A DNA stretch of 49,364 nt from Candidatus Tayloriibacteriota bacterium (lineage in GTDB: Bacteria; Patescibacteriota; Minisyncoccia; Phycocordibacterales; SIBU01), in the NCBI GenBank assembly GCA_016188455.1, contig JACPHR010000006.1, forward strand, positions 1 to 49,364, in the 5' to 3' direction. Within the stretch, counting starts at the first letter, position 1, and each line of letters starts with the position of its first letter. The notes below the pieces were generated by a model that saw only the letters and a list, made by a program, of their open reading frames with translations, was not told the origin of the DNA and did not search any database. Position numbers and translations under genes: made by a program. Of the stretch, positions 21,095-48,992 are shown one piece after another.

Positions 21095-22102
21095 TCAATA
21101 GATAACAATACCCATTTTTTCTCTCACCTCGGCAACCGTTTCCGAGATGATACGGCGGGCTTGTTTACCGCCCTCATGAAGAATTTCAACCACCTCGGAA
21201 CGTTTGCTGTCCAACTCTTGTCGCTTCGCTTGAAATGGTTCAATGAGTTTCGCAAGATTGTCCACGAGAAGATTCTTGCACTCAACGCAGCCAATCTCGG
21301 CCCCCCGACATTGTCGGCCAACCCGAGAGAGTTCGGCCTCGGGTGTAACCAGCGCATGAACCGGGTACACAGACAGGCACTTATTCGGGTCCCCTGGGTC
21401 GGAACGAGTTTTCCGAGCAGGATCCGTAATGCCGTCTTTCAAATAACGGCGACGCATGTCATCAATAGGGGCTCCTATGTCAACGGCGTTAACCGCGTCT
21501 GACTTACCCATCTTCTCGCCGTTGAGACCGGGCACCTTGATTTTCTCTTTTATAGCCTCCGGCATGGGGAACGTTTCCCCATAACGATTGTTGAAACGCC
21601 GGGCTAGTTCACGCGCCAGTTCAACATTGGCCGTCTGGTCTTCGCCAACGGGAATAACCGTCGCTTTGGGACCAAGGATATCTGCCGCCATGAGAACCGG
21701 ATAAGTCACGAGGCCGAGCGTTGCTGACCCGTGTTTACGAACGAGGTCTTTTACCGTGGTCAAACCTTGCAGTCTGCCGAGGGGTTGGAGCATGCTCAAA
21801 CATAGTGACAATTCGGCAATCTCCGGCACGCTTGACTGGGCGTAGATTATTGACTTTTCTGGGTCAAGACCGGCCGCCAGATAGTCCGTCACCATTTCAA
21901 TGAGGTTGCCTCGCAACTTTGTCGGGTCGGGACATTCCGTCAAGGAGTGCCAATCAGCGACAAAATACATGCACCTATTGCTACCCGTCTGGTATTCAAC
22001 AAAATGTCGGACTGCGCCAAGATAGTTGCCTAAATGCAACCGTCCGGTGGCGCGAATACCTGACAAAACTACTGCTTTCTTTTCTGTAATTTCAGAGTTC
22101 AT
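21095..22102 (-). CDS. trpS: Tryptophanyl-tRNA synthetase
   Basis: SGIRATGRLHLGNYLGAVRHF, PVGEDQTANVELARE, GEKMGKSD. Confidence 0.95.
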   Translation of the reverse strand: MNSEITEKKAVVLSGIRATGRLHLGNYLGAVRHFVEYQTGSNRCMYFVADWHSLTECPDPTKLRGNLIEMVTDYLAAGLDPEKSIIYAQSSVPEIAELSLCLSMLQPLGRLQGLTTVKDLVRKHGSATLGLVTYPVLMAADILGPKATVIPVGEDQTANVELARELARRFNNRYGETFPMPEAIKEKIKVPGLNGEKMGKSDAVNAVDIGAPIDDMRRRYLKDGITDPARKTRSDPGDPNKCLSVYPVHALVTPEAELSRVGRQCRGAEIGCVECKNLLVDNLAKLIEPFQAKRQELDSKRSEVVEILHEGGKQARRIISETVAEVREKMGIVIY

Positions 22103-29350: not shown

Positions 29351-30967
29351 TTACAAAACCGTTCTAAGCTCCACAAAGAAAGTGGACCCCTTGCCCTCGC
29401 CAAACGATTCCACCCAAATCCTCCCGCCGTGGGCTTTAATCATTTCTTTGGCCACATAGAGGCCGAGGCCGGTGCCGAAGAGATTAAACTTTGAGGCGTC
29501 CTCGGCGCGGCTGAACTTTTGGAACAGGTGTGGAATAGTTTCCGGCCTGATGCCGACGCCGGTATCCTTGACGGCAAGAGTCACTTTGCCGGCGGCCTTG
29601 TCCGATAACAGCGAAACATTGATGCTCCCTTTTGGCGTATATTTAGTGGCGTTATCCAGAATGTTGCCGATCACTTGCTTTATTTTCCCCCTATCACCCT
29701 TGATGTTAATCGGCTCTGGACAGACGCCTACAGAAATCGCCAAACCTTTTTTCTCAATGTTAGGTTTGGCCTCGTTCACTACTTCATTCACGAGCGCGCA
29801 GAGGTCAAAGGTCGTGAAATCATACTTCATCCTGCCCTGCTCAATCCGCGAGACATTGAGAAAATCATCAACAATAACCGCCAAGGATTTGCTGGATTGG
29901 TAAATCGTATCAATAGTTTCGCGCAAGTTTTCCGGCACCTCGCCATAATCGCCCTCAATCATCATTGAAGCGTAACCTTTAATGGCCGTAAGCGGGCCCC
30001 GAATCTGGTGCGTCGCCAGCGACACAAACTCGCTTTTGAGTTGGTCAAGCTCCTTCAGCCGCTCATTGGCCTTTTCCAACTCTCCGGCCAATTTCTCAAT
30101 TTTTTCCCGCTGCGAAACTTCACTAATAACACTACGTATAAGCAGGATGCCAAAAAATACTACAAGAATAAGAAGGACGCCATTTGTCAGTCTGGCTTGC
30201 AAAGTTTCAGAGAGTATTGTTTGTACCAAAATGAAAATCCAAATTGCAAAGGTTAACAATTCAGTCGCAACAACCTTGATGTCAAAGAGGTGATGTTTGA
30301 GAATGGCGTACGCTAGTATTACAGGATATAGGGAAAAAAATATGACACCTACTGGCATAATTAATACATTAAAAGTGGGCAAAAAAGCCATACCACCACC
30401 AATGAAACCGACTAGGGCCGCAATAAAAATAAATTTTAATTGCAAAACCTTAAAGCCCTGACTTGTTTGTATTTGTTTAAACAGTAACAATAAAGAATAG
30501 GGTATTGAGATAGCATAAAATAAAATAAGTAAATAATAACCTAGCCCAGCTGTAGGGTAATAATTAAATAGCAATTTTGGTTCCAAACTTGTCACAAAAA
30601 CTCCAGGATAAAAAATTTCTAACACATTCAACAAAACTATAAGGCCTGCGGCAAGATAGACAAAAAACAATGCTTTGGTTCTAACTCTATTTTGACCCAG
30701 ATTTACTAAAACAAAATGTACCCAAAAGGCAGGTAATAAAATTGAACCAAAATCCATTATCAAGCGCCACATATACGCGGTGTTGTAAGACGTGGAGTTA
30801 AGTAAAGATAAAAATCCGACACTCCAAACCGCACTAGAAATAGAGAGAAAGAAAAAACTCAAATCAACATTCTCTTTGTTGTTTCTTAAAAGGATAACCA
30901 GTCCAACTAAAAAAGAAAGAACTGATCCCAATAAAAGACTTATCTTAAAAAAGTAAAGTAATGTCAT
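29351..30967 (-). CDS. Multi-TM (7TM-like N-terminus) sensor histidine kinase
   Basis: SEFVSLATHQIRGPLTAIKGYASMM H-box, DNATKYT N-box, [14 protein letters not shown]; multiple N-terminal TM helices. Confidence 0.9.
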   Translation of the reverse strand: MTLLYFFKISLLLGSVLSFLVGLVILLRNNKENVDLSFFFLSISSAVWSVGFLSLLNSTSYNTAYMWRLIMDFGSILLPAFWVHFVLVNLGQNRVRTKALFFVYLAAGLIVLLNVLEIFYPGVFVTSLEPKLLFNYYPTAGLGYYLLILFYAISIPYSLLLLFKQIQTSQGFKVLQLKFIFIAALVGFIGGGMAFLPTFNVLIMPVGVIFFSLYPVILAYAILKHHLFDIKVVATELLTFAIWIFILVQTILSETLQARLTNGVLLILVVFFGILLIRSVISEVSQREKIEKLAGELEKANERLKELDQLKSEFVSLATHQIRGPLTAIKGYASMMIEGDYGEVPENLRETIDTIYQSSKSLAVIVDDFLNVSRIEQGRMKYDFTTFDLCALVNEVVNEAKPNIEKKGLAISVGVCPEPINIKGDRGKIKQVIGNILDNATKYTPKGSINVSLLSDKAAGKVTLAVKDTGVGIRPETIPHLFQKFSRAEDASKFNLFGTGLGLYVAKEMIKAHGGRIWVESFGEGKGSTFFVELRTVL

Positions 30968-33115: not shown

Positions 33116-33163
33116 GGGCGTAGCAAGGAGAGGGCGTAGCAAGGAGACTCCTTGCTACGCCCT
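33115..33163. repeat. Palindrome with half-copy: AGGGCGTAGCAAGGAG + AGGGCGTAGCAAGGAG-a-CTCCTTGCTACGCCCT
   Basis: Perfect arms of 16 bp at 33131-33163 plus direct half-repeat 33115-33130; same arrangement at 35931-35981. Confidence 0.95.
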
Positions 33164-33189
33164 TAAAGATGGATGGGTTTGGGCGAATA

Positions 33190-34149
33190 TTAAAACTCTT
33201 GGAACATTGGCCGAATGATATTAACATCAAGAGATATGGTAACGCTGTGATCAATTGAACTGGCGCCAGTCACGGTTATCTTATCCGGATAATGACCTTT
33301 GGCAATCGGCGTCTGGGCTTGAATGACCATGTCAATGCCTTTTGAGTACAGGTCACTGGTCATAGTGGCATTTTCAACTGAAGTGCCGTGATTGTAAAAA
33401 ACGTAAGTAACCTCAACTCCCGCTATTTTTGATGGCGAGGCGGAGAGCGTCACGGGGTCGGTAAAGCCGCTTGACGACACCACATAGATGGCAACACGGT
33501 TTGACACCGCGCTCTGGCCCACAAAATTCATGACGGCTAACGGGTCGGCGTTCAGACCATAATCCGCCATTGGGCTAGAGACGCGAACGGCGCTGGAGCA
33601 TTGGGTCGGCGGATTGAGTTGGGTTTGGGCATTGGAATCCGTAACCGTTACATAGGCATTTTTAAGTCCGGCGGTTGAGTATCTTACAGTCACCGGATTG
33701 CCCGTGGACGGCTTGCCGGCGTCATCAACAATAGGCGAATCGCCCGTCCATGTATAGCTATATGGGGGCGCTCCGGCCGAAGCTTCCGCTGTCCATGTTA
33801 CATCCTGATTAATAGAAGCGGCGGCGCTGGAAGGAGAGCAAGAGACGGTTATTGGAGCTGGTAAAACGGTAATGGTAACGGAGGAGGAGAAATGTGGGTC
33901 GGTAGGTTTAGTGGTATCATAGCAATCAATAGTAAATGTTCTGTCCACAGACGATGGGTCAGTATTAACCAATGCATCAGTAATCGCAGTACCTGTAGGA
34001 ACGGCAAGGTCGCCCGCAAAACTACCCGATACGGATTCTGGAGTTGGATTACATTGTATAGCCGCCATCGCAGGTCTTGTGTAAAAAACCGAACCGGCAA
34101 TGGCGAGAATGGCGCAAAGATATATAAGAGAAGAAAAACGAGATTTCAT
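33190..34149 (-). CDS. Secreted PKD-like repeat protein
   Basis: Signal peptide, ITVSCSPSSAAASINQDVTWTAEASAGAPPYSYTWTGDSP. Confidence 0.75.
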   Translation of the reverse strand: MKSRFSSLIYLCAILAIAGSVFYTRPAMAAIQCNPTPESVSGSFAGDLAVPTGTAITDALVNTDPSSVDRTFTIDCYDTTKPTDPHFSSSVTITVLPAPITVSCSPSSAAASINQDVTWTAEASAGAPPYSYTWTGDSPIVDDAGKPSTGNPVTVRYSTAGLKNAYVTVTDSNAQTQLNPPTQCSSAVRVSSPMADYGLNADPLAVMNFVGQSAVSNRVAIYVVSSSGFTDPVTLSASPSKIAGVEVTYVFYNHGTSVENATMTSDLYSKGIDMVIQAQTPIAKGHYPDKITVTGASSIDHSVTISLDVNIIRPMFQEF

Positions 34150-35981: not shown

Positions 35982-36006
35982 GTTATTGGAGCTGGTAAGA
36001 CGGTTT

Positions 36007-36032
36007 GGCTTAACACAAGAGAATTATAGCAC
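36007..36032 (-). repeat. MLSQ repeat copy 1 (promoter + GTG start)
   Basis: Minus strand GTGCTATAATTCTCTTGTGTTAAGCC. Confidence 0.9.
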
Positions 36033-36171
36033 AGGAGAAAACCGACAGTCAGTCTTGCCTTGCGCTATTCTTAAGTATGTGGTAACTTTTCTGTTAGAGC
36101 TACCGGTAAGAGCCGAATAGTTCTTGTTCAAGTATAATAACCCTTAAAGAAAAGGAAGGAGCAGAAAACGG

Positions 36172-36567
36172 ATGAGTATAGCAACACTCGAACCACCCCA
36201 AACTAGTAGGGAGCTCGCCTCCCCGGACCAGCCCACTCTGCCTGACATTTCAAAGGTTACTCCTCTGTCAGAAGCAGATAAACCGTTGATTGATGACATT
36301 GTGACAGTGCTGAAAAAGCACGGTGCCCAACATCGGTTTGGACTGACACTGCTCCACCAACACTTTGATATGTCTCCAGATGAAGTATTGGTGGAGTCCA
36401 CAGATGTGGAAACTCGCACTCAAACCATCAAGCCCGATAAGAAAGTTAATCTCAAGGGTCTACCGGTCACCGAGACTGCTTGGCGCCTGGATACCGGGAA
36501 ACCGATGATGGCTTGTGTTTGTGTCCAGATGGGTGATAGTCACGACCATCGAAGAAGAGGGGGTTGA
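36172..36567 (+). CDS. Hypothetical protein
   Basis: SD AAGGAAGGAG; 131-aa ORF KKHGAQHRFGLTLLHQHFDMSPDEVLVESTDVETRTQTI; followed by terminator 36589-36617. Confidence 0.65.
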   Translation: MSIATLEPPQTSRELASPDQPTLPDISKVTPLSEADKPLIDDIVTVLKKHGAQHRFGLTLLHQHFDMSPDEVLVESTDVETRTQTIKPDKKVNLKGLPVTETAWRLDTGKPMMACVCVQMGDSHDHRRRGG

Positions 36568-36588
36568 GTTCCCTGTCTTGAGTTCGCA

Positions 36589-36622
36589 GTCTCGTTGCGT
36601 GAGTTTGCAACGAGACCTTTTA
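36589..36622 (+). terminator. Terminator
   Basis: GTCTCGTTGCgtgagtttGCAACGAGACCTTTT. Confidence 0.85.
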
Positions 36623-36643
36623 TTTTTTTGATACTATGCTTAT

Positions 36644-37339
36644 ATGATTTCTTGGAACCAAAAAGAAGTTCTGTTTAAGGGTATATCTTATTACATATAT
36701 AGATACAATATAAAATCAGTTCTTGATATAGGAGCTGGTGATGGAACATTGGCGGATAAGATTTCTCACATCGTCAATAAATATCTTGCCGTGGAAAGAG
36801 ACAATAAGAAAGTCAGTATTCTAAAAACCTCCGGCCTTAATGTGGTTAAAGGAGAGTTTCCATCGGTTAAAATTTCGAAAAAATATGATTTAGTTCTCTC
36901 TTCGCATTCAATCCCAGAAAATACAAAAACCCTAGAAAAATTTATACGTACGGCGTGGCAATTAGTCAAACCGGCAGGCATACTCCTCATAGTAACCTTT
37001 AAGGGCGGAAAGGGAGATGAATTTAAATTGATAAGAGAATTAGAAGGAAAAAGTGTTGAATTAAATGAACTTATTTTTAAGAGAACAATGTGTATTCTTC
37101 AAGAGCTCGGAAAACCAAAGATTAAGAAACGAATAAGTAACATTGAAACTACGAGCTTACAAGAAATGCTAGAAGTTGTTTTGTTTTCTTTAGCGGCGGA
37201 AGGCAAAAGTACCAGATATAAAAAAGAAGTTGAGGATTTGCTAAAAAGGGACTTCAAACAAAGTAATAAATACTCATTATCTTATGAGCATCTTTTTATA
37301 GCGATGCAAAAAAATCATCCTCATGCGGCGCTCAAATAA
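36644..37339 (+). CDS. SAM-dependent methyltransferase
   Basis: VLDIGAGDGTLADKI...YDLVLSSHSIPE...LVKPAGILLIVTF. Confidence 0.8.
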   Translation: MISWNQKEVLFKGISYYIYRYNIKSVLDIGAGDGTLADKISHIVNKYLAVERDNKKVSILKTSGLNVVKGEFPSVKISKKYDLVLSSHSIPENTKTLEKFIRTAWQLVKPAGILLIVTFKGGKGDEFKLIRELEGKSVELNELIFKRTMCILQELGKPKIKKRISNIETTSLQEMLEVVLFSLAAEGKSTRYKKEVEDLLKRDFKQSNKYSLSYEHLFIAMQKNHPHAALK

Positions 37340-37545
37340 ACAAAAGCGATTTGGGATACCTAGTCGACAGAATAAAAATCTTAAAAGGGCTGCCGCAAGT
37401 GTACGGTACGCAATATAAAAAATTGGCGACCGGGAAAATTATTTTTTTTGATATTGAAGATGTTAAAAATGTAGATAAAAGGAGAAAGAAATTGGGAATG
37501 GAAACGTTCGCGCAATATCAAAAAAGGATACCGGAAAATCAATAA
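37326..37545 (+). pseudogene. C-terminal fragment of a DUF6624-like gene, paralogous to 44133-44621
   Basis: SDLGYLVDRIKILKGLPQVYGTQYKK...DKRRKKLGMETFAQYQKRI; shares GCGCTCAAATAAACAAAAGCGA junction. Confidence 0.8.
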
Positions 37546-37599
37546 TGGCGGGATTATTAATGTTGGGCCTTGCAGCTGCCTTGCCCACGATCCGAGTCG

Positions 37600-37652
37600 C
37601 CCAGAATTTTTTGGATTGCTTCTTCACTTAACACAAGAGAATTATAGCACGG
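37600..37652 (-). repeat. MLSQ repeat copy 2
   Basis: Minus strand CCGTGCTATAATTCTCTTGTGTTAAGTGAAGAAGCAATCCAAAAAATTCTGGG. Confidence 0.92.
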
Positions 37653-37746
37653 AAAACCGCCCCCCGAGCCACCGCCAGAGGCGGGGGTTTTTAGTTTTTA
37701 ATCCTTTAAGATCATCAAGATTGGGCCCTGCTACGGCCTCATCCAC

Positions 37747-38847
37747 CTAATGCCATCTAAAATTACTTCTATAATCCCACTGGTCAATCGTATTGTCATC
37801 AATAACCTTTACTTTTTTTATAAATCTTAAGATATCCCGATATATTATATTTGAATGTGTTATCTTTCTCAGATCTTTCCCTAAAAACGCATATGCATAT
37901 AAATAACGAGGAGAAAATTTTTTTTGTAATGCATTTTGAGGCAACTCAATATGTTTATTTTGCAACCTTTTAGGATGAATGCGTAGTCGGATTTCTTTGA
38001 TGTCATTAATGCGAAGTAATAATTGTTTTCTATCTCGTAGAGCTAGGTCAATGACCCCATGAAAACTACCACATACATCATATTTCTTAAATAAAAATTC
38101 ATCTATCAATGGAAGGTGCTTTTTAAGTAATCTGGATAAAGTTTTAATCTCTTTTGTCCCGATCGTTTTGTTTATAAATACTTTCAAAACGTTATTTTGT
38201 TGCAATAAATCGATGTTAGCAGTAAATCCATTTTTTGAACACAGTGCCGATAATAATCCGTTTTGGGTGGCATTTGCTACTTGCAAAGCCTTCGCATGAG
38301 ATCCAAAATTTCCCTTAACGCCACTCATAAAGCTAAAAGCTATACCAAGGGCATTAACCGTTTGATCTGTTGTAAGATGCAACAGTTTTGCTGAAAGCGC
38401 AGTAGAGCCCAATATACCAATAATGGAAGTTGGATGATACTGACTATGGTAAAGCCCGGGGTTGAATATTTTTCCTAAAGCAATTTCGATTTTTAGCCCC
38501 TGCAAGAGGGTGATTTTATTTTGTTTCAACGGAGACAGCAGTTTGAAAACGGGATAAAGTGTTGCCATGGGGTGTCCACCAATACTATATGACATTTCAT
38601 CAAAATCCCTATAGTGGATAGCATAAGAATTGAGAAATACATCCTTTTTATCAACCATTTTCCTCTCTTTCTGTGTTAGATAGTAAAATGCTAATGCTAA
38701 TTTATTATACTGCTCGCTTTTTCGGAAAATAGCCATCTCTCGTTCTGCATTTACTATAAGTTTATCGAGAATCCTAGTGTCCTCTTTTGTAAAATTACGC
38801 TCAATTGACATTGCGTAGTTACCGATAGTAGATAACAATTTCCTCAT
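37747..38847 (-). CDS. MmgE/PrpD family protein
   Basis: GLYHSQYHPTSIIGILGSTALSAKLLHLTTDQTVNALGIAFSFMSGVKGNFGSHAKALQVANATQNGLLSALCSKNGFT. Confidence 0.75.
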   Translation of the reverse strand: MRKLLSTIGNYAMSIERNFTKEDTRILDKLIVNAEREMAIFRKSEQYNKLALAFYYLTQKERKMVDKKDVFLNSYAIHYRDFDEMSYSIGGHPMATLYPVFKLLSPLKQNKITLLQGLKIEIALGKIFNPGLYHSQYHPTSIIGILGSTALSAKLLHLTTDQTVNALGIAFSFMSGVKGNFGSHAKALQVANATQNGLLSALCSKNGFTANIDLLQQNNVLKVFINKTIGTKEIKTLSRLLKKHLPLIDEFLFKKYDVCGSFHGVIDLALRDRKQLLLRINDIKEIRLRIHPKRLQNKHIELPQNALQKKFSPRYLYAYAFLGKDLRKITHSNIIYRDILRFIKKVKVIDDNTIDQWDYRSNFRWH

Positions 38848-39617
38848 ATAAGTTTTGTAATTTTCAGAATATCACCAATTTTTGCATTGATCGATTTGGC
38901 ACCGTACTCGCGTACTTTACCCAACTCATACATACCCAAAGAACTACCCGGAAAAATTACCCAGCTGCCAGTTTCTTGCGACATCATTCTTTTACAAAAA
39001 ATGGCTTTAATTTTGGTTTCATTAATCTCAACTTTATAATAATTATTTTCTTTAATGTTATCTAAGTCTCCGGTAAATTTCATCATTCCAAAATTATCAA
39101 TGTGAACGATAGTATGACCTACTATATTTAATCTCGTAATTTCTTCCGGAGAAACAGGTGCCCCTAAATTTTTTATATCTTCACCACATGCTATTTTTGC
39201 AATTGTCGGTGCAGTGACCAATTTCCCACTAAAAGAAAGAAATTGTTTACTTAAATCGGTAAATAAACCGGAAGCATCATAAAGCTCCGTACAACCAAAA
39301 TCTCTCGTGAGCCAATCAAATGCTCCTGTATTTCTTCCCATGAAGATAAAGTCTTTCTTCTTTGTTTTTCCGATAAGAGATTTTGGTCTTTCTTTTACTG
39401 GATTAAAAATAACAGAAAAAAGAGTTCCTGGTGGGTATAGGTCCGCCATCAACCTCAAGGCAAAATTGCAGTTAACGACCGAGAACTCGCGAATTGGAAC
39501 AAACGGCTCTATCTCAATATCTTTACGGTCTCCTATTTCATTTATAATACTTGCTCTTAATTCATTAGCGGCGATATCGACACAATCAGTTACGATAACT
39601 AAGCGTTTTATTTGCAT
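38844..39617 (-). CDS. SAM hydroxide adenosyltransferase (DUF62/fluorinase-chlorinase superfamily)
   Basis: VIVTDCVDIAANELRASI, ALRLMADLYPPGTLFSVIFNP, HIDNFGMMKF. Confidence 0.75.
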   Translation of the reverse strand: MQIKRLVIVTDCVDIAANELRASIINEIGDRKDIEIEPFVPIREFSVVNCNFALRLMADLYPPGTLFSVIFNPVKERPKSLIGKTKKKDFIFMGRNTGAFDWLTRDFGCTELYDASGLFTDLSKQFLSFSGKLVTAPTIAKIACGEDIKNLGAPVSPEEITRLNIVGHTIVHIDNFGMMKFTGDLDNIKENNYYKVEINETKIKAIFCKRMMSQETGSWVIFPGSSLGMYELGKVREYGAKSINAKIGDILKITKLI

Positions 39618-39620
39618 TTT

Positions 39621-40199
39621 TTATTTCTTAACTTTATCAAGTTGGAAAAATTTTATTATTTTTAATACAACCTTTTGGGCAGATAAATGTGTGTTATCAA
39701 CAATAAAAGTTTGATCAACCGGTGTTAGTGTAGAAAAGTCCAGTTTATTCATAACTTCAGTTAATTCATTAATAGTATTGGGTTTGTTGTATTTTACTCT
39801 TTCTTTATTCAACACTCGTTTTTTTTGTTCCCCTGAATCACAAACTAGTTTAACGTAATTAATAGTTCCACCGTTTTTTCGCATTAATTTATCTAATTTT
39901 TTATAGAAGGCATGGGTATCTTTAGTATTGGGGAATCCAGTCGTCCATATCAAACCAGGAACTTTCTCAACCAATAATTCGTTAATAATATCAAGACGTA
40001 TTTTTCTTATTAAATTACTAAAAGGTTTACTATAAAAAGAAAAGAAGTTTTCTGCTAAATCAATAGTCATGTGATTATGCAGTATGGGGTATCCAGTTTT
40101 TTTAGATAATTCATTGGCTGTGGTCAATTTGCCAACAGCTGTTGCTCCGTAAATGACTATTAATTTCATAATTAATTTTATTTTAACATTAATCATCAA
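39621..40199 (-). CDS. P-loop nucleotide/small-molecule kinase-like protein
   Basis: MKLIVIYGATAVGKLTTANELSKKTGYPILHNH. Confidence 0.65.
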   Translation of the reverse strand: MMINVKIKLIMKLIVIYGATAVGKLTTANELSKKTGYPILHNHMTIDLAENFFSFYSKPFSNLIRKIRLDIINELLVEKVPGLIWTTGFPNTKDTHAFYKKLDKLMRKNGGTINYVKLVCDSGEQKKRVLNKERVKYNKPNTINELTEVMNKLDFSTLTPVDQTFIVDNTHLSAQKVVLKIIKFFQLDKVKK

Positions 40200-40265
40200 T
40201 GAATGTCTACATTTTACATAAATTTGGTAAAAAACAGTCTGATATAGTATAATAAAAATACAATT

Positions 40266-41681
40266 ATGAACTCAGTTAAAAGCTTTCCAGACGACAGCCA
40301 GCCAAATGACAATAATTATAATCCGACCATTAAGGTCGATGAAGATACTACAAAAACTCCATTTGTCAGACATTTTACTAAAACTGGCGTAACTTTTTCG
40401 TGCATTTATTCTGACGAAAAGCAGATTGCTTTAGTTGCAGTGTTTAGTAAGCCTGAGTTGCTAGACACTTCACGTACGATTCCTGTAAGATTGCACTCCT
40501 CTTGTGCTAATAGTGATATATTGGGAAGTTTTGACTGCGATTGTCGGAGCCAACTTCTTCATTCAATTGACATTCTGAGAGAAAGAAACGGGGTGCTCAT
40601 TCACTTATTTCAAGAGGGACGCGAGGCTGGGATTTTCGCAAAATATCTGGGAATGTACACAATGCAATCTAAAGGTCTGAACACTTATGGTGCCTACAGG
40701 AAGCTGGCTTTGGATGTTGACGGACGAATCTACTCGCTTGCTTTTAAGATTTTGCGTAATCTTGGAATTAAAAGGATATCTCTTTTGAGCAATAATCCAA
40801 AGAAAGCTGTGGCTTTTCATGAAGCTGGCTTTTCAGTTACTTCAGAGGCTCTACTTGGTGAAATTACACCTCAGAACTTTAGATATCTTTTCAGCAAATT
40901 TTCCGAGGGCCAGCATAAAATTTCAGAACTATTTCCAGAGGGTGGAGACTATTATTTTTGTAAGACAACCTCATCAGTTGGACCATTTCGTAGAACATGG
41001 ATACTGGATGGAGATGACATGCTGTGGGAGGACAATATTGTTTATATGAAAATAGTTGATGACTTTGTTAAACATTGCCTTCCTTATACACCCCAAACCG
41101 CAGAACAACAGATTCGTCAGATGATAGATGATACGGAAGAAAAGACAATTCAAGAATACGGTTTAGGCGCAATTGGCTTCCGACAGTCCTTGGAAACCGT
41201 TTATGAACTTCTCTCTGCTAAAAATAATGTAATTCCCCGACCCGCAGAATTGCTCGACTCGGTTGTTCAAATCCTTAAAAATCAACCGGAAGTCCTGACT
41301 GCCGACGTGGTTACAGTTTTGTCCGAACTAGAGAAGCGGGGTGATGGGCTTATTCTCTACACTCAAGGGCCTCCCCGTATTCAATTTGAGAAAATTGCTC
41401 GCTCAGGTTTGGCAGAATATTTTCATGCACTCTGTGTTGTGAAATTTAAGGACGATAGTTCATTGAGACGACTACAGCATGATTTTAATTTTAACCCTGG
41501 AGAATTTATTTTGGTGGGGAACAGTCTGCGTTCTGATATTGAGCCCGCTATAAAAGCAGGTTTAAAAGCAATTCATTTTAATAACCCTAATTCTTGGCAC
41601 ATTCAGAATCTTTCTAAGTTGGAGAAATCGCAGTATCTGCAAATTGATAGTCTAACCGAACTTCTCGAACTCAGTATTTAA
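40266..41681 (+). CDS. Fusion: GTP cyclohydrolase II-like domain plus C-terminal HAD-type domain
   Basis: RLHSSCANSDILGSFDCDCRSQL, FQEGREAGIFAKYLGMYTMQSKGLNTYGAYRKLALDVDGRIYSLAFKILRNLGIKRISLLSNNPKK; WILDGDDMLWEDN, FILVGNSLRSDIEPAIKAGLKAI. Confidence 0.85.
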   Translation: MNSVKSFPDDSQPNDNNYNPTIKVDEDTTKTPFVRHFTKTGVTFSCIYSDEKQIALVAVFSKPELLDTSRTIPVRLHSSCANSDILGSFDCDCRSQLLHSIDILRERNGVLIHLFQEGREAGIFAKYLGMYTMQSKGLNTYGAYRKLALDVDGRIYSLAFKILRNLGIKRISLLSNNPKKAVAFHEAGFSVTSEALLGEITPQNFRYLFSKFSEGQHKISELFPEGGDYYFCKTTSSVGPFRRTWILDGDDMLWEDNIVYMKIVDDFVKHCLPYTPQTAEQQIRQMIDDTEEKTIQEYGLGAIGFRQSLETVYELLSAKNNVIPRPAELLDSVVQILKNQPEVLTADVVTVLSELEKRGDGLILYTQGPPRIQFEKIARSGLAEYFHALCVVKFKDDSSLRRLQHDFNFNPGEFILVGNSLRSDIEPAIKAGLKAIHFNNPNSWHIQNLSKLEKSQYLQIDSLTELLELSI

Positions 41682-41703
41682 GCAAAATATCATTTTCTGC
41701 GCT

Positions 41704-42720
41704 TTAGTGCTTAATGATTTCAAAAACCACTTTGCCTACTTTTGCATTTATTCGCCCCGTTCCTCCTATTGGAAAAGTAAATTGAGGATATGTGTGTCCA
41801 AAATTTAGATTAGCAACCACTGGGATTTGTGAGAATTTGGGATAATTGCGAATTATTTTAACCAAGATACCGTCACTAATCTGGCTAGCGGATGTAAATC
41901 TACCGATCAAGAGTGCTTTTACTCCCTTGAATCCTTTTTGATGTATCAGAGATTGTAGTAGGCGGTCAAATGATCGAGGTCTGATTTCACCATTCTCTTC
42001 CAACATCAAAATAGAGTTTGATAAGTCAGGAAGGAATTCAGTTCCAAAAAGCGTAGTTAGTGAAGTTAGATGACCTCCAATTAAACGCCCCTCGGCATCT
42101 CCTTCAGCAATTATTAATGGACCAGGATTTGGAAGAAATTTTCTATTTTCTTGGTCAAGCCACCAAAAATCATCGCTCCAAGAACGAGTTGGATTGATTA
42201 TAAACGGCTCTGTTGAAAAAACGCATGTCCGAAATGTTTCCAATGTATATTCAACCCCTTTCTTCATCCCGAATGTCCCGTAGAAAGGACCGTAATATGT
42301 TACGATTCCTGTCTTGGCATAAATTGCGTTCACTAGCACTGTGATATCGGAGAATCCGCAAAAAATCTTTGGGTTGTCTCTTAGTAAATTCCAATTAATC
42401 GACTGCAGAATTTGAGCGGTGTTCATGCCTCCTAAGCCAGACAGTATCAACTTAACTTCAGGATCCATCAGTGCTTCGTTAAGATCCTCCACCCGATCTG
42501 CAACACTGGAAGTGTCAAATTCATCGCTAACTTCGACGTACTTACCAAAAGATACTCGGAGACCCAACGCCACAAGGTTTGTGTTGCAAACTTCACGCTG
42601 AGAGGGAGACACGCCTTTTAAACTGAGTCCGAAAGATATCACTCTAACAAGATCTCCTTTTCGGAGACGTCCTGAAAACTGTGTTGCATTATTTATTTGA
42701 ATGGCTTCTTGACTTAACAC
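41704..42720 (-). CDS. S66-family LD-carboxypeptidase/MccF-like peptidase; GTG start lies inside the MLSQ repeat
   Basis: LKLILSGLGGMNTAQILQSINWNLLRDNPKIFCGFSDITVL, IAEGDAEGRLIGGHLTSLTTLFGTEF, VVANLNFGHTYPQFTFPIGG. Confidence 0.85.
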   Translation of the reverse strand: MLSQEAIQINNATQFSGRLRKGDLVRVISFGLSLKGVSPSQREVCNTNLVALGLRVSFGKYVEVSDEFDTSSVADRVEDLNEALMDPEVKLILSGLGGMNTAQILQSINWNLLRDNPKIFCGFSDITVLVNAIYAKTGIVTYYGPFYGTFGMKKGVEYTLETFRTCVFSTEPFIINPTRSWSDDFWWLDQENRKFLPNPGPLIIAEGDAEGRLIGGHLTSLTTLFGTEFLPDLSNSILMLEENGEIRPRSFDRLLQSLIHQKGFKGVKALLIGRFTSASQISDGILVKIIRNYPKFSQIPVVANLNFGHTYPQFTFPIGGTGRINAKVGKVVFEIIKH

Positions 42721-42738
42721 AAGAGAATTATAGCACGG
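42701..42738 (-). repeat. MLSQ repeat copy 3
   Basis: Minus strand CCGTGCTATAATTCTCTTGTGTTAAGTCAAGAAGCCAT. Confidence 0.92.
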
Positions 42739-42883
42739 CTTAGAACAAAGCTCGTGTTTCGTTATGTGATTTCGTCATTACTAGAGCAGGAGTGCCATAA
42801 TGTGGTTGACGTACAAATCATTGACAATTAATTGGTCTTGTGTAATGTGTACTTAGAAACCAACTCAACAGAAAGTATGTTCC

Positions 42884-43882
42884 ATGAAAACAAAAAAGGT
42901 GCTTATTGTTTCCCACGCTGAAGATGGGAGTTCTAAACTCCTCATGCAACGGTTAAAAGAGAGTGACGAGCCATACCAACTCGTTGATTTAGGAAAGTTC
43001 CCTCTTGAAGCAACGGCCTCAATTGATCTATCTAGTGAAGTATCTATGAGATTCGTTGAAGATAAGTTTGGATTTACAGGGGACAGCGTAAAAAGTGTCT
43101 GGTGGAGAAGACCAAAAGGAAAAGCGCGTCCATCGACAAACAACCCGCTCCAAAGATACATCGAGCTAGAATCCGAAGTGTTCATCAGTTCACTTTTTAA
43201 CCTGCTCGGCACTGATACACAGTGGGTATCTCATCCAGAGAAAACAAGACTTGCTAACAGAAAACCGCTACAACTTGAAGTTGCCAGGCAAATTGGATTT
43301 AGAATACCGAAAACTCTCGTATCCAACGACCCGGAAGCCGTTAGGGATTTTCTCGAAGTAAATCATAACATGCCCATAATTATGAAACCGGTTGGCACTA
43401 GCTTCGTGAGACTTTCAGACGACCCGACTGATGCTGAAGGAAAAAACCTGGCGATTTATACCAAGATAGTGGACAAAGATTTGTTGCTTCGCAATATCCA
43501 AAAAGTCAAAAATTGTCCGGTGATCTTCCAAGAAGCGGCAATGCAAGAGTTCGACATAAGAGTTACTGTAGTAGGACGCAAAGTGTTTGCCGTAAAGATT
43601 AGTCACAGCAAAGAACGGGAGATTAATGATGGCAACCTTGATTGGCGACATCACGAACTTGACCGTGTGTACGAAAAGTACCAACTACCGAGCGAGCTGG
43701 AAAATAAGTGTGTTGAGATTGTCAATCGTTTGGGGTTGAACTTTGGTGCCATTGATATGTGCTTTTCCAAAGAGAAAGGGTATATATTCTTTGAAATTAA
43801 CCCTCAAGGGCAATGGGTTCCGTCAGAGGTCACCGCCGGGCACCCCATATCCATCGCACTTGCAGAATTCCTGTCCATGTGA
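42884..43882 (+). CDS. ATP-grasp RiPP maturase of the MvdC/MvdD (graspetide synthetase) type
   Basis: SVWWRRPKGKARPS, NRKPLQLEVARQIGFRIPKTLVSNDPEAVRDF, DIRVTVVGRKVFAVKI, DWRHHELDRVYEKYQLP, LNFGAIDMCFSKEKGYIFFEINPQGQW. Confidence 0.88.
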   Translation: MKTKKVLIVSHAEDGSSKLLMQRLKESDEPYQLVDLGKFPLEATASIDLSSEVSMRFVEDKFGFTGDSVKSVWWRRPKGKARPSTNNPLQRYIELESEVFISSLFNLLGTDTQWVSHPEKTRLANRKPLQLEVARQIGFRIPKTLVSNDPEAVRDFLEVNHNMPIIMKPVGTSFVRLSDDPTDAEGKNLAIYTKIVDKDLLLRNIQKVKNCPVIFQEAAMQEFDIRVTVVGRKVFAVKISHSKEREINDGNLDWRHHELDRVYEKYQLPSELENKCVEIVNRLGLNFGAIDMCFSKEKGYIFFEINPQGQWVPSEVTAGHPISIALAEFLSM

Positions 43883-43925
43883 TAGGTTGATATTAGTCTA
43901 GCATAAGAAAGGGGGGTGAGAAAAA

Positions 43926-44066
43926 ATGAAAAATGAGGAAGCGCTTCCTATCACGTTTCTCCATTCTGAGCCGTGTGAGTCAAAGGTTACAGAGTGTCCA
44001 GAAACTGACTTCGCCCGCGAACATGATACCATGATCCAGCGAACGGGAGATTCAGACACCATCTAA
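43926..44066 (+). CDS. Putative 46-aa graspetide precursor peptide
   Basis: SD AAGGGGGGTGAG; MKNEEALPITFLHSEPCESKVTECPETDFAREHDTMIQRTGDSDTI; 43 nt after the ATP-grasp; terminator follows. Confidence 0.72.
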   Translation: MKNEEALPITFLHSEPCESKVTECPETDFAREHDTMIQRTGDSDTI

Positions 44067-44087
44067 CACTGATGTCTGACATAAACC

Positions 44088-44124
44088 CTCCTCCGGCATA
44101 CGCTTGCCGCAGGAGGATTTTTTA
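44088..44124 (+). terminator. Terminator after the putative precursor
   Basis: CCTCCTCCGGCatacgcttGCCGCAGGAGGATTTTTTA. Confidence 0.8.
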
Positions 44125-44132
44125 TATCCAAC

Positions 44133-44621
44133 ATGTACACAAAAAAGCTAATCAAGAAAATTGAAGCCCTCTACGATGTAGACCAGCGGTCTATACGATT
44201 ATATAGGTTGGGAAAGTTATCTGGACTGGTGCTTGAGAAAATAAACCTTGGGCACACAGCAATCCTAAAAAAAATTATTGCCAAGCACGGCTTCTCTTTT
44301 AAAAATAGTACTTCTGAAAAAGCATACGCCTCCGCATTTTTGATTACGCAACACTCCGACGACTTGGGTTTTATGGAGCGCGTAAGACGAATTTTTTCTG
44401 GCTCCAGTGGCGCTCAAATAAACAAAAGCGACCTAGGGTACTTAATAGACAGAATAAAAGTTTTAAAAGGACTGCCGCAAGTGTACGGCACGCAGTATAA
44501 AAAGACGAGAGCCGGGAAAATTACTTTTTTTGATATTAAAGATATTAAAAATTTAGATAAAAGAAGAAAAAAATTGGGCATGGAAACCTTAAATGAATAC
44601 AGAAAAAATTTAGTACAGTAG
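44133..44621 (+). CDS. DUF6624-like hypothetical protein
   Basis: SAFLITQHSDDLGFMERV...LIDRIKVLKGLPQVYGTQY. Confidence 0.6.
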   Translation: MYTKKLIKKIEALYDVDQRSIRLYRLGKLSGLVLEKINLGHTAILKKIIAKHGFSFKNSTSEKAYASAFLITQHSDDLGFMERVRRIFSGSSGAQINKSDLGYLIDRIKVLKGLPQVYGTQYKKTRAGKITFFDIKDIKNLDKRRKKLGMETLNEYRKNLVQ

Positions 44622-44660
44622 GAAAGGAAAAAATGTGACATTAAACTTATTCACCACGGT

Positions 44661-44742
44661 CTCCGGCGTGAGATACACTTTTTCCTCAATGCCCAAAATT
44701 TTTTGGATTGCTTCTTGACTTAACACAAGAGAATTATAGCAC
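44661..44742 (-). repeat. MLSQ repeat copy 4 (long form)
   Basis: Minus-strand reading MLSQEAIQKILGIEEKVYLTPETVVNKFNVTFFPFLLY*. Confidence 0.92.
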
Positions 44743-44831
44743 AAGAAAAGAACCTTGCTGAAAACAGGGCAAAAAAATCCCAACGCAATAAATTACGGTC
44801 AACTATTTTGTACTTATGTTATAGTATGTGT

Positions 44832-45644
44832 ATGGAAACAAAAACAAATAACCACAAGCTCTATGAATGTAAGCTCTTTTTTGACTTCCCTAGTAATGTT
44901 AAAAATTCAAAAGAATTTATTTCCCGTCTTGTCCAAAATGTGCGAAAAACCGAGCTTGGTTTTCTAGGGTTTTCTAAAAAAGAGCACCTAAAAAATTGTC
45001 TTGAGAGGCAAATTTTTGATGTGGCAAAAAGATTTGAGAGTATTTCCAGTAACCATGAGCAGGCTATAGAAAAAACAATCGAAACTGAAATTCATCGACT
45101 CAAAAAACTCGTCTTGTCTCAAAAAACTCACATCTATATTTTCCCCACTTTTTCAGATTTTGTATTGAATAAAATGAGTGGAATAAGTGGTTATACACCA
45201 TGGAAAGACATTGTCTTTTTGTTTGTCCATCCAAAAACGAAAAATATTAACCCGTTTTTAAATATAACCTTGGCGCATGAGTATGTCCATTCCGTAAGTC
45301 GTGAATATCATGAATGGAATAGGTTACTTGACACTATTGTGTTTGAGGGTTTGGCAGAACTTTTTATAGCAGAACATTTTAATGGGTACATATCACCGTG
45401 GACGAAGACGCTTACTATAGATGATTGTCACAAATATCTTGCTCAGATCAGAAAAAAACTCAAGTCAAAAAATCATGATGACTATAGGGATGTATTTTTC
45501 AAAAATAAAATGTACCCTCTCTGGGCTGGATATTCGATCGGGTATCAAATAGTAAGATTTTATCGTCAAAAGAATAAAAACATCACATGGAATGAATTAT
45601 TGAAGAAAGAGGTAGATGAAATTTTTGAAAATTCAGGTATATAA
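44832..45644 (+). CDS. DUF2268-like putative zinc metalloprotease
   Basis: HExxH motif TLAHEYVHSVSREYH...DTIVFEGLAELFIAEHF. Confidence 0.75.
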   Translation: METKTNNHKLYECKLFFDFPSNVKNSKEFISRLVQNVRKTELGFLGFSKKEHLKNCLERQIFDVAKRFESISSNHEQAIEKTIETEIHRLKKLVLSQKTHIYIFPTFSDFVLNKMSGISGYTPWKDIVFLFVHPKTKNINPFLNITLAHEYVHSVSREYHEWNRLLDTIVFEGLAELFIAEHFNGYISPWTKTLTIDDCHKYLAQIRKKLKSKNHDDYRDVFFKNKMYPLWAGYSIGYQIVRFYRQKNKNITWNELLKKEVDEIFENSGI

Positions 45645-45646
45645 AA

Positions 45647-45675
45647 AGTCCCGGAAATTGTTCCCGGGACGATGT
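45647..45675. terminator. Bidirectional terminator between convergent genes
   Basis: AAAAAGTCCCGGAAATTGTTCCCGGGAC. Confidence 0.75.
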
Positions 45676-45695
45676 GTTCTACAGGTTGGCTCAGA

Positions 45696-45815
45696 TCAGT
45701 CTTTGCTTTGAGCGGAACCGCCCGATGAGTCGCTGCTCTTTTTTGCAACAACCACATTCTGGCGCTCTTTGACGGAAACTCTGAATTTGAGCGGCCGTTT
45801 GATTTTCATTTTCAT
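45696..45815 (-). CDS. Short basic Ser/Gly-ending peptide
   Basis: MKMKIKRPLKFRVSVKERQNVVVAKKSSDSSGGSAQSKD; followed by a hairpin shared with the 44832 gene; start approximate. Confidence 0.5.
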   Translation of the reverse strand: MKMKIKRPLKFRVSVKERQNVVVAKKSSDSSGGSAQSKD

Positions 45816-45956
45816 AGTGTCAACCCCACTGATTCTTTGGTTGAAATTGCCTTTTTCAAGACAAAGACTATTCCAATAGTCTACTACCAAACTATCATAC
45901 TCATATTTAAATAGCAATATCCCCGAATTAGCTCACGAAAATCTATCTGCCATACT

Positions 45957-46038
45957 CTCCGGTGTGAGATGCACTTTTTCCTCAATCCCCAGAATTTTTT
46001 GGATTGCTTCTTGGCTTAACACAAGAGAATTATAGCAC
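45957..46038 (-). repeat. MLSQ repeat copy 5 (long form)
   Basis: Leaderless micro-ORF 46022-45933 MLSQEAIQKILGIEEKVHLTPESMADRFS*. Confidence 0.92.
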
Positions 46039-46047
46039 GGAAAATCC

Positions 46048-46081
46048 TCCCCCGCCCCGCCCTCGGCGGGCGGGGCGGGGG
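46048..46081. repeat. GC-rich hairpin
   Basis: CCCCCGCCCCGCCCtcggcGGGCGGGGCGGGGG. Confidence 0.85.
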
Positions 46082-46127
46082 TATTCATAATATTGTTTTA
46101 AAACTGGTATCTTGCTATAGTGTTGTT

Positions 46128-46352
46128 ATGACCCTTATCACTATACCAAAAAAAGCCCAAAGAGAAGATCTCGTCATTATTCCTAAAAGCGAGTATGAAC
46201 GACTTGTGAGCGTAAAGATGCCACGCATATTTAAAGAGGTCTCCATGACCAAAAATCAAAAGTGCGCTTTTGAACGCGCCAAACGAAATTTTGCGAAAGG
46301 CAATTTTGTAACCCTTGATGCACTCAAACGAGATTTGGAGCGTCGGTGTTGA
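46128..46352 (+). CDS. Antitoxin (paralogue of 48545-48778)
   Basis: MTLITIPKKAQREDLVIIPKSEYERL...MTKNQKCAFERAKRNFAKGNFVTL. Confidence 0.75.
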   Translation: MTLITIPKKAQREDLVIIPKSEYERLVSVKMPRIFKEVSMTKNQKCAFERAKRNFAKGNFVTLDALKRDLERRC

Positions 46353-46587
46353 CCCGTCGGTACGAAAAACGCTGAAAAGATTCAATAAAAAAGACGTGAG
46401 GAAAATTCTCGCGGTTTTTGAAGGGTTGTCTCTCAATCCTTACTCCGGCGACATCGAAAAGTTGAAGGGCGGAGAGAATAAATGGAGGCGAAGAATTGGT
46501 GTATACCGAATCTTTTACCAAATTTATCAGAGTAGCCGAACAGTCTATGTTGCTCACATTGAACGCCGCGGCTCTCACACCTACTAA
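46315..46587 (+). CDS. RelE-family toxin
   Basis: GGENKWRRRIGVYRIFYQIYQSSRTVYVAHIERRGSHTY. Confidence 0.85.
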   Translation: MMHSNEIWSVGVDPSVRKTLKRFNKKDVRKILAVFEGLSLNPYSGDIEKLKGGENKWRRRIGVYRIFYQIYQSSRTVYVAHIERRGSHTY

Positions 46588-46647
46588 ACTTCTCAGGGCG
46601 ACTTTTTTCTACAAACACTACCGGCACCAGAATTTTTTGAAAAAGAC

Positions 46648-47142
46648 TTGATGGAAATTAAATCACAACTTAAAAATCGATCGCGGCGGGGATTCAATCT
46701 TGTGTATCGTGATGCCGATTCGCTCACCGAACTTGGCAAAAGAATCGTCTCCGGTGTGTACGGATATTGTTTCTATGGAGAAAAACTGATTGTGGTTTAC
46801 GCCGAAACAAAAGGTTACTGGACGCTTCCGGGTGGCAGCGTCGAATCAGGAGAATCTGTGGAACAAGCGCTCGCACGAGAGGTGAGAGAGGAAACGACTA
46901 TGAGGATAATTACTCAACTGCTTATCGGCTACCAAGATATTTTCGAGCCAACAGGCACGGTCACGCAAACCATATCCGTGTGTGTCGTTGAACCCATCGG
47001 TCCCTTTGAAAGCGATCCGGCAGGTGAAGTTACGGAAATAAAATTGATTAACCCGAAAGATTACAAGAAATATTTTGATTGGGGAGCTGTAGGAGAGCGT
47101 CTTTTGAAAAGAGCGCTTGAAGTTAACGAGGCAATAAAATGA
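46648..47142 (+). CDS. NUDIX hydrolase
   Basis: Nudix box GGSVESGESVEQALAREVREET. Confidence 0.9.
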   Translation: MMEIKSQLKNRSRRGFNLVYRDADSLTELGKRIVSGVYGYCFYGEKLIVVYAETKGYWTLPGGSVESGESVEQALAREVREETTMRIITQLLIGYQDIFEPTGTVTQTISVCVVEPIGPFESDPAGEVTEIKLINPKDYKKYFDWGAVGERLLKRALEVNEAIK

Positions 47143-47594
47143 TCAACTGTATTTTCTGCAAAATTGCAAAAGGAGAAGCACCCGCGCACAAAATTTGGGA
47201 AGATGGAAAACACCTGGCCTTTCTTTCCATTTTTCCGAACACCGAGGGATTTTCGGTAGTGATTACAAAAGAGCATTACCCATCGTATGCATTTGATTTA
47301 CCAGAAGAAGTTCTGATTGGTTTGGTAAAGGCCGCGAAGCAGGCGGCAAAATTACTTGATGCGAAACTAGAAGATGTTGGGCGCACGGGTATGATTTTTG
47401 AGGGTTTTGGCGTTGACCATCTGCATGCCAAGCTTTTCCCCATGCATGGAACGGAAAATATAAAAGAGTGGAAGCCGATAAAATCAAATGTTGATAAATA
47501 TTTTGAAAAATATGAAGGGTACATTTCTTCCCACGACTGGAAACGAGCCGATGATGCGAAGCTTGCCGAGCTAGCGCGGCGGATTACAGGCTAA
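47139..47594 (+). CDS. HIT family protein
   Basis: INCIFCKIAKGEAPAHKIWEDGKHLAFL...GVDHLHAKLFPMHG. Confidence 0.88.
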   Translation: MINCIFCKIAKGEAPAHKIWEDGKHLAFLSIFPNTEGFSVVITKEHYPSYAFDLPEEVLIGLVKAAKQAAKLLDAKLEDVGRTGMIFEGFGVDHLHAKLFPMHGTENIKEWKPIKSNVDKYFEKYEGYISSHDWKRADDAKLAELARRITG

Positions 47595-47619
47595 TTGATT
47601 CTCAATCACCAACTCTGAT

Positions 47620-48303
47620 TTACAGCAGTGCGGCCACTTTTCGCATAATCACCCGAGCGGCGGTTTTAAAGTCGGCTACCGTTGGATTTTCAACCGATAC
47701 GACGTCCTCAAAATAGAACGGCGCGCCAAAAATAATTCTTACTCTTCGTCTCCTAAGGAAAAAATCGGCCGGAGTAGTGCGATAGGCACTGCTGATTCTC
47801 ACCGGCACGACAGTCGCCCCCGTCCGCCACGCCAGATAACCCGCTCCGCCGTGGGCAATGGAGCCGATATCGCTTTCGGGCAACCGCTTGCCGTCTGGAA
47901 ACATACACAGGCTGTGCCCGTCATTAAGAATTTGAATATGAGGCGCGAGGGAAACCGCGTAACTATGTTGCCCTGACCCTAGGCGATGAGCCCCCCAGAG
48001 CTTAAAGAAAAATCCTCCATAGAAAAATTTTCGCCAGCCGCTATTTTTGTAAAATTGCTCTTCGCGCGAGGTATAAAACATGGGCATCAAGGGCGAAAGA
48101 AACGGCAGGCTGGCCGGCAAGAGAATCGGGTCAAGCTCGCTTCCGTGATTGACGGCAAAAATCATGCCCCTGTCGCGCGGCAGACTTTTAAGACGCTCTA
48201 TGCCGTGAATGTCTAACCGCAGAAAAAAAAGAAACATCGGTCGGACAATCGGCCAAATGGCGGTTTGCAAAATAAATGGAGTGATGTAGAAAAAGCGGCG
48301 CAT
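47620..48303 (-). CDS. 1-acyl-sn-glycerol-3-phosphate acyltransferase (PlsC-like)
   Basis: FAVNHGSELDPILLP (NHxxxxD) and MFPDGKRLPES. Confidence 0.85.
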   Translation of the reverse strand: MRRFFYITPFILQTAIWPIVRPMFLFFLRLDIHGIERLKSLPRDRGMIFAVNHGSELDPILLPASLPFLSPLMPMFYTSREEQFYKNSGWRKFFYGGFFFKLWGAHRLGSGQHSYAVSLAPHIQILNDGHSLCMFPDGKRLPESDIGSIAHGGAGYLAWRTGATVVPVRISSAYRTTPADFFLRRRRVRIIFGAPFYFEDVVSVENPTVADFKTAARVIMRKVAALL

Positions 48304-48309: not shown

Positions 48310-48579
48310 CTAGTAAGTATGTGACCCGCGCCGTTTAATCTCAACCACAACTACGGCTCGCGATTCTTGGTAAATTTTGTAAAAAATACGATATACTCCG
48401 ACCCGTCGCCGCCAGCGATTTTCTTCGCCTTTGATTTTCTCAATATCTCCAGCGTATGGATTTTCTTTTAATGACTCAACCGCCTCAAAAATGCGACGTC
48501 TATCGGACATTGAAAATTTCGCGCTGTACCGATATACATCTGGGTCAACGTGTAAGGCCCAATTTCTGTTTGAATTCAT
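48310..48579 (-). CDS. RelE-family toxin
   Basis: GEENRWRRRVGVYRIFYKIYQESRAVVVVEIKRRGSHTY. Confidence 0.85.
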   Translation of the reverse strand: MNSNRNWALHVDPDVYRYSAKFSMSDRRRIFEAVESLKENPYAGDIEKIKGEENRWRRRVGVYRIFYKIYQESRAVVVVEIKRRGSHTY

Positions 48580-48778
48580 TGAGAGTTAAAGACTTTCCTT
48601 GGGCAAAATTGCGCTCTGCTCTCTCAAATGCTTTTTTTTGCGCCTTTGTCATTCGCACTTCCCTGTACTTCTTTGGGAGCGCGAAGTTGGCGCGTTCCTG
48701 AAGCGCTTCGAACTCTGCCTTTGGAACAAGTATTAGCTCCTTCCCCGCAAGATGTTTGGGTATAGTAACGGTAGTCAT
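48545..48778 (-). CDS. Antitoxin
   Basis: MTTVTIPKHLAGKELILVPKAEFEALQERANF. Confidence 0.75.
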   Translation of the reverse strand: MTTVTIPKHLAGKELILVPKAEFEALQERANFALPKKYREVRMTKAQKKAFERAERNFAQGKSLTLNEFKQKLGLTR

Positions 48779-48934
48779 GCTGACAGTATAACAAGGTGTG
48801 GAATCTAAAACAATGTCCAAGCAACTAGTTAAAGGGGCATTTTCTTTTTCCAAAACCCCCGCCCAACTTCTAGAGGTTGAACCTTAGGTCAGGAGAAAGG
48901 TTCAACCTCGTTTTGTTGTTGTTAATCTTAATCT

Positions 48935-48980: not shown

Positions 48981-48992
48981 TTTGGGCGAATA

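Follow-up and report, generated by a model that had tools for sequence, protein, structure and literature searches.

The window analysed here, a stretch of 49,364 bases, is one whole contig (C16, JACPHR010000006.1) of a Candidatus Tayloriibacteriota genome of 893,420 bases in 31 contigs, estimated to be about 98% complete; the genome was fetched in pieces and its total length checked. Within 10 kb of this contig lie five exact minus-strand copies of a 24-nucleotide (nt) core (GTGCTATAATTCTCTTGTGTTAAG), which occurs nowhere else in the genome, and between them sit four modules of 1.3-5.1 kb whose cargo differs (Table 1). A longer 28-mer (GTGCTATAATTCTCTTGTGTTAAGYSAA) is also exact in all five copies (36005-36032, 37623-37650, 42709-42736, 44715-44742 and 46011-46038, minus strand), against a chance expectation of 0.00 in 100 shuffles; a scan of the whole genome that allowed up to 3 mismatches gave no further copy. 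The start-to-start spacing of the copies is 1618, 5086, 2006 and 1296 bp. At up to 3 mismatches the core has no match outside the source genome among 397 sampled genomes of its order, and exact scans of GTDB genomes and IMG/VR with a 21-mer of the repeat gave nothing beyond the source genome. A first-pass annotation of this DNA, made from its letters alone, had proposed five same-orientation minus-strand copies running for different lengths into a coding sequence. Both the copies and the variable run are real; the starts given for copies 2 to 5 deviated by between a few and about 55 bases, and the leftmost copy proved to have almost no coding extension.

Read from its GTG, the repeat translates as VLSQEAIQKILGIEEKV(H/Y)LTPE, which is the N-terminus of a protein of about 550 amino acids (aa) in 12 other genomes (247 genomes of the same order were searched). 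We refer to its gene as X. A search of GTDB r220 gave 18 X loci (e.g. L202:4464-6107), with X single-copy in 18/18, and the genomes carrying it are Patescibacteria/Parcubacteria metagenome-assembled genomes. Across the order the X proteins are 46-52% identical to that of the same-genus genome G003, and many residues are invariant, those of HWHGY and HxEPHHGxN among them. Gene X has no Pfam match above cut-off, no NCBIfam match and no PDB sequence match. A structure search with its AlphaFold2 model (mean predicted local distance difference test score 86.8) gave a single, weak group of neighbours, that of the class II aldolase L-rhamnulose-1-phosphate aldolase (E=4.9e-4, target TM 0.45, 9% identity); this modelled likeness to class II aldolases is a lead only.

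The X start in G003, CCGTGCTATAATTTCTCC-ATG-TTGAGCCAAGAG, is clearly the same promoter and start as the repeat, in which TATAAT is followed after 6 nt by GTG. In the source genome a TATAAT with the ATG of an open reading frame (ORF) of at least 100 codons 6 to 9 nt further on is frequent, and the spacing peaks sharply at 6 nt. Since that spacing is common before ORF starts, the repeat is, as judged from its sequence, the normal leaderless extended -10 promoter of gene X together with its GTG start codon. The idea that the repeat is the promoter and start-codon module of one gene is thus supported by the full-length gene in relatives and by the G003 start. Leaderless starts of this form (TATAAT-6 to 9 nt-ATG) occur throughout the source genome. 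Other short multi-copy repeats in the genome (20 nt or longer), classed by eye, are mostly palindromes, contig-end overlaps and low-complexity runs. The perfect palindromes form families of 20-52 bp scattered over the genome (7646-7689, 48936-48979, 33133-33158, 35951-35976 and many on other contigs), some of them adjoining array copies; they are probably terminators or repetitive extragenic palindromic-like elements.

Based upon the X loci of relatives, the ancestral gene order is acyltransferase-X-histidine kinase-TrpS. X is followed by the histidine kinase in 18/18 loci and has the acyltransferase before it in many. The window retains the acyltransferase, kinase and TrpS genes in the same order and orientation, and the array sits between acyltransferase and kinase. 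Because the usual neighbours of X are kept in order around it, the array occupies the former X position. No X body is present in the source genome: a tblastn search of all 893,420 bases with 12 full X proteins as queries matched only the 5' pieces. The array therefore stands in place of X at the ancestral locus, and of the X body the genome has nothing left; the full-length gene sought since the first-pass annotation exists in relatives and not here. X and its start are also missing from the same-genus genomes G001 and G002. Among the loci examined none has two X genes.

Two further features lie on the kinase side. A histidine kinase C-terminal fragment (26999-27196) is 84% identical to the kinase of G003 and 75% to the full kinase of the window; the native kinase seems to have been broken, the full one representing a second lineage. 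The ORF at 27566-28330 contains sequence also present at contig ends and is likely an insertion sequence remnant.

Table 1. Repeat copies, modules and retained neighbours of gene X in the 49,364-base window (TA, toxin-antitoxin).
Feature	Position	Strand	Content
Copy 1	36009..36032	-	24-nt core (leaderless -10 and GTG of X), then only about 10 nt of X coding; left terminal copy
Module A	36033..37589	+	131-aa ORF (36172-36567), methyltransferase (36644-37339), DUF6624 C-terminal fragment (37351-37545)
Copy 2	37590..37650	-	Core and about 33-36 nt of X coding; DUF6624 tail opposite
Module B	37651..42692	mixed	The five genes below
MmgE/PrpD	37747-38847	-	Module B
S-adenosylmethionine hydroxide adenosyltransferase-like	38844-39617	-	Module B
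P-loop kinase-like	39621-40199	-	Module B
GTP cyclohydrolase II-HAD	40266-41681	+	Module B
S66 peptidase	41704-42720	-	Module B; predicted start codon from copy 3
Copy 3	42693..42736	-	Core and about 8 X codons, in-frame fusion to S66 peptidase (VLSQEAIQ-INNATQF...)
Module C	42737..44621	+	ATP-grasp peptide maturase, MvdD/TIGR04187-like (42884-43882), 46-aa putative precursor peptide (43926-44066), full DUF6624 (44133-44621)
Copy 4	44622..44742	-	Core and 35 X codons (to NVTFFPF); end adjoins DUF6624 stop codon
Module D	44743..45935	mixed	DUF2268 Zn-protease (44808-45644, +), 73-aa peptide (45696-45917, -)
Copy 5	45936..46038	-	Core and 29 X codons
Right flank (possible fifth module)	46039..47619	+	Copy 5 to acyltransferase: RelBE-type TA pair (46128-46587), NUDIX (46648-47142), HIT (47139-47594)
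Acyltransferase	47620..48303	-	Ancestral upstream neighbour of X
Histidine kinase	29351..30967	-	Family following X in relatives
TrpS	21095..22102	-	Ancestral downstream neighbour of X

The five copies retain about 10, 33, 24, 105 and 87 nt of X coding sequence after the GTG (copies 1 to 5), the left terminal copy being the sole one with almost no extension. Every copy thus stops within 105 of about 1650 nt, which under independent random truncation has a probability of about 1e-5 (our own arithmetic, with four copies taken as independent). No column of the core varies (0/24) as against 7/29 of the next coding columns (p=0.01); when only freely variable columns are counted the figures are 0/11 and 4/10 (p=0.035). 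Over their first 22 codons copies 4 and 5 differ by four synonymous changes and one non-synonymous change, and beyond these the protein sequence diverges. Because these differences are mostly synonymous, the fragments derive from different, once-functional X alleles rather than being fresh copies of one fragment.

On the upstream side the copies are mostly unrelated, yet the edge is not cleanly cut. A short pyrimidine-rich stretch is common to the copies, with a 10-nt window more alike than chance (p=0.0025); copies 2 and 5 have about 16-32 nt upstream in common, running into a GC-rich hairpin, and copies 1, 2 and 4 have a GGAAAA-like 8-12 nt. This sharing contradicts a perfectly sharp edge on the promoter side.

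Homologs of the S66 peptidase start about 8 codons later with an ATG of their own, in whose place the X start from copy 3 stands here; the predicted in-frame start codon of this peptidase is that supplied by copy 3. The notion that each insertion event regenerates a gene start holds for this copy.

The array has a G+C content of 0.38, compared with 0.49 for the genome, and is the lowest of 139 ten-kb windows; it is a foreign, low-G+C island. Searches of Pfam and NCBIfam confirmed the cargo identities given in the first-pass annotation. Its description of the modules as unrelated is correct in so far as the cargo is heterogeneous, but the DUF6624 ends of modules A and C are homologous. From the DUF6624 tail through the X 5' fragment to the core these repeat-proximal ends are 75% identical over 338 columns, and the core is identical at 24/24 positions while DUF6624 stands at 82% (P=0.0085 if the core had diverged like DUF6624). 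By this alignment A and C are sibling modules that have diverged and differ in their inner cargo; the shortened X 5' end beside DUF6624 is probably older than their split. The ATP-grasp protein of module C matches TIGR04187 with E=1e-58, below the curated cut-off, and the 46-aa peptide beside this maturase (42884-44066) reads MKNEEALPITFLHSEPCESKVTECPETDFAREHDTMIQRTGDSDTI; together they look like a graspetide pair.

To the right of copy 5, RelBE/ParE-type TA pairs at 46128-46587 (+) and 48310-48853 (-), 47% and 58% identical, flank the HIT-NUDIX-acyltransferase block. A 400-bp duplicate of a gene for a secreted-looking protein (33162-33561 and 48965-49364, 98.5% identical) lies with one copy on each side of the region. 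Its second copy runs off the contig end, and the duplication may be larger.

Searching relatives for the repeat, as the first-pass annotation had proposed, showed no array at the other loci examined. Repeated X starts are absent from the other X loci (12 loci in one set and 18 in the other), and no second X start was found in the other genomes among 384 of the class. Near DUF6624 or S66 homologs no comparable array was seen at 20 loci in 20 other genomes, and a de novo repeat search at the DUF6624/S66 and X loci gave only palindromic or other dispersed repeats, untied to gene starts. In viral contigs, relatives of X, of DUF6624 and of the ATP-grasp protein were not detected at the sensitivity used. 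The array is one case, and a partly decayed one. The same annotation had named a conserved 5' end of an ordinary paralogous family, with constant cargo, as the observation that would tell against it. Relatives do have a normal, conserved 5' end, but it belongs to a single gene and not to a family; full-length tandem members were not found, there being no full-length X in the genome and no multi-copy X elsewhere, and fragments with differing cargo occur in the source genome only.

Serial single-crossover integration of circles through one gene end yields same-orientation copies with different cargo between them, and is well known at the 3' ends of tRNA and tmRNA genes. We tentatively suggest that a process of this kind built the array, and regard it as a real possibility that putatively mobile modules, bordered on one side by an X 5' fragment, were joined serially by single-crossover integration through the repeated 5' end. 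Each small incoming module would bring its own X 5' fragment, a circle-type crossover would insert module after module, and every event would leave a gene-start copy in the same orientation between two cargoes. The modules would have been drawn from different relatives, which is our proposed reason why changes in the first 22 codons of the coding extensions are mostly synonymous and the core does not vary. The body of X would have been lost once, at a later time, by deletion or replacement beside copy 1, and the recombination enzymes would have been supplied in trans, as for cis-mobilizable elements (CIMEs) without an integrase of their own. Where a fragment provided a cargo gene with a functional promoter and start codon, as copy 3 would for the S66 peptidase, it may have been co-opted. 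The model alone does not account for the differing extension lengths, for which later trimming of unneeded coding sequence has to be assumed. It does need only a single loss of X and not five truncations, and five independent cuts within the first 105 of about 1650 nt are very unlikely. In favor of such accretion we count the identical cores, their one orientation, their absence elsewhere, the position of the array at the X site, the limit of 105 nt of coding in all copies, the core without variable columns, the homologous ends of modules A and C, the mostly synonymous differences between copies 4 and 5, the low G+C content and the lack of an extension in the left terminal copy alone.

Several observations weigh on the other side. 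An integrase, relaxase or phage gene was not recognised in any module, and the earlier remark that the window shows no integrase stands. Elsewhere in the genome the sole tyrosine recombinase is Xer-like (closest to XerC/XerD) and lies on another contig (C15), and a serine recombinase is absent from the genome. The core lacks dyad symmetry (p=0.7), and promoter function alone could account for part of its conservation. Both the extension edge and the upstream edge are graded and not fixed, and no array was found in any second genome examined. Of the original proposal of recombination through the 5' end of one gene, the location at the X site and the mixed, low-G+C cargo are in agreement, whereas a site-specific step and mobile modules are putative, with neither a dyad nor an attC fold in the core and no array at the other X loci examined. 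All three other genomes of the genus (L220, L221, L222) carry large serine recombinases; those of G002 and G003 end, by eye, in apparent read-through of tRNA DNA and probably target tRNA genes, not X.

Since the repeat bears no recombinase signature, RecA-mediated exchange through the same repeats is a serious rival, if on the whole a somewhat unlikely one. DNA of related strains would enter via the 30-100 bp of X 5' homology, the other joint being illegitimate, with no dedicated mobile unit and no site-specific step. A hot spot of this type fits the grading of the repeat at both edges, the copy alleles, which differ like homologs of different strains, and the microhomology-like joints, for example where the methyltransferase runs into DUF6624 DNA; the broken native histidine kinase (26999-27196) likewise suggests that the whole locus is scrambled. 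Taken alone it leaves unexplained why only the first 105 nt or less are present, in one orientation and with an invariant core. An unlikely course of events is that five full copies of X, or of X and its kinase, were duplicated or acquired in tandem and then gutted by unrelated insertions and deletions. The operon is certainly plastic, with three tandem kinases after X in one relative and a second partial kinase in the window, and promoter function would preserve the 24 nt; random decay, however, should leave internal or 3' pieces of X, of which the genome has none, and no two-X locus was seen among the loci examined.

That the array is of the integron or Xer/dif type, with the core serving as an attC/attI or dif-like site, we consider very improbable. 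By eye GTTAAGY fits the GTTRRRY integron core, but GTTRAGY arises automatically from the codons for M-L-S (any ATG/GTG-TTR-AGY start), the junctions show no attC-like fold (z-scores 0.03 to -1.7), and there is no IntI, the tyrosine recombinase scoring best to XerC/XerD and far below integron-integrase cut-offs; the attC reading was rejected on the lack of fold and IntI and the start-codon origin of the motif. The core matches the dif consensus at 14/24 positions, which is marginal (p=0.03), and the only tyrosine recombinase of the genome is Xer-like. That likeness is produced by TATAAT plus GTTAA, and in 60 relatives the dif-like pattern is about as frequent as a reversed control. Because X and its start are absent from G001 and G002, the core is unlikely to be a chromosomal dif. 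With no convincing dif, no dyad and no enrichment over the control this reading too is disfavored. There is the barest chance that metagenome assembly fused strains at a shared short sequence, for which the fragmented assembly and the five alleles resembling different strains might be cited. Contig-end overlaps are exactly 140 nt, as for a k=141 graph, and exceed the 24-48 nt exact repeats, which such a graph should therefore resolve, making a false join unlikely; moreover each copy has two different breakpoints and not one, and the array is coherent in G+C and gene content. Cassette-like accretion is the best supported reading, though unproven. Its furthest extension, a cassette system of reduced Patescibacteria genomes with a recombination site derived from a host-gene promoter and start codon and with the host recombinase acting in trans, is in our view decidedly improbable.

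Among known systems, integron arrays resemble this one in having small cassettes in a row, a repeat at every junction and a terminal site unlike the internal ones; they differ in that here there is no IntI and no attC fold, the cargo reaches five genes and the repeat encodes a promoter and start codon. The pdif/Xer modules of Acinetobacter are also small modules between short repeats with a recombinase from the host, but pdif sites alternate in orientation, and a convincing dif is not seen in the present core. The SXT element brings along a 5' end that replaces that of its target gene. The 5' end of a gene as integration target is exemplified by the SXT/R391 integrative and conjugative elements in prfC (PMC4542580). 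They are like the array in targeting the 5' end of a protein-coding gene and unlike it in that here there is no integrase, conjugation gene or intact target, and the elements are tens of times smaller. The closest parallel may lie in Dehalococcoides strains, in which 20-bp copies of the ssrA 3' end border many tandem islands, some of them lacking an integrase (PMC3146451); decay of an element to a CIME, followed by the next integration, is a described route to tandem arrays (PMC5704250). As in these, tandem different cargoes lie between same-orientation direct repeats of one end of a single-copy host gene, here the 5' end of X, many units are without an integrase of their own and the cargo is low in G+C or accessory. 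Unlike the ssrA islands the repeat is the 5' promoter and start of a protein gene and not the 3' end of an RNA gene; unlike CIME arrays the host gene body is lost, with no intact target gene at the array end, the units measure 1.3-5 kb, and the array occurs in one genome. A related integrase-bearing element at the same site was not found, nor any array at the other X loci examined. Relative to known tandem accretion at gene ends, two features are unusual: a promoter with a start codon forms the repeat, and the target gene has been lost.

Little is known about the ways in which gene-poor Patescibacteria acquire accessory genes. The present locus is a foreign island built at one gene start, holding a graspetide-like pair, proteases, DUF6624, a methyltransferase and a five-gene metabolic block, and at least one foreign gene, that for the S66 peptidase, apparently now uses the old X promoter and start codon. 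Even if these 5' fragments are no recombination sites, the array clearly documents that DNA was acquired repeatedly through one gene. If they are, DNA capture and expression would be joined in one element of 24-46 nt, and should the cassette reading be true each captured module would gain a ready-made leaderless promoter and start.

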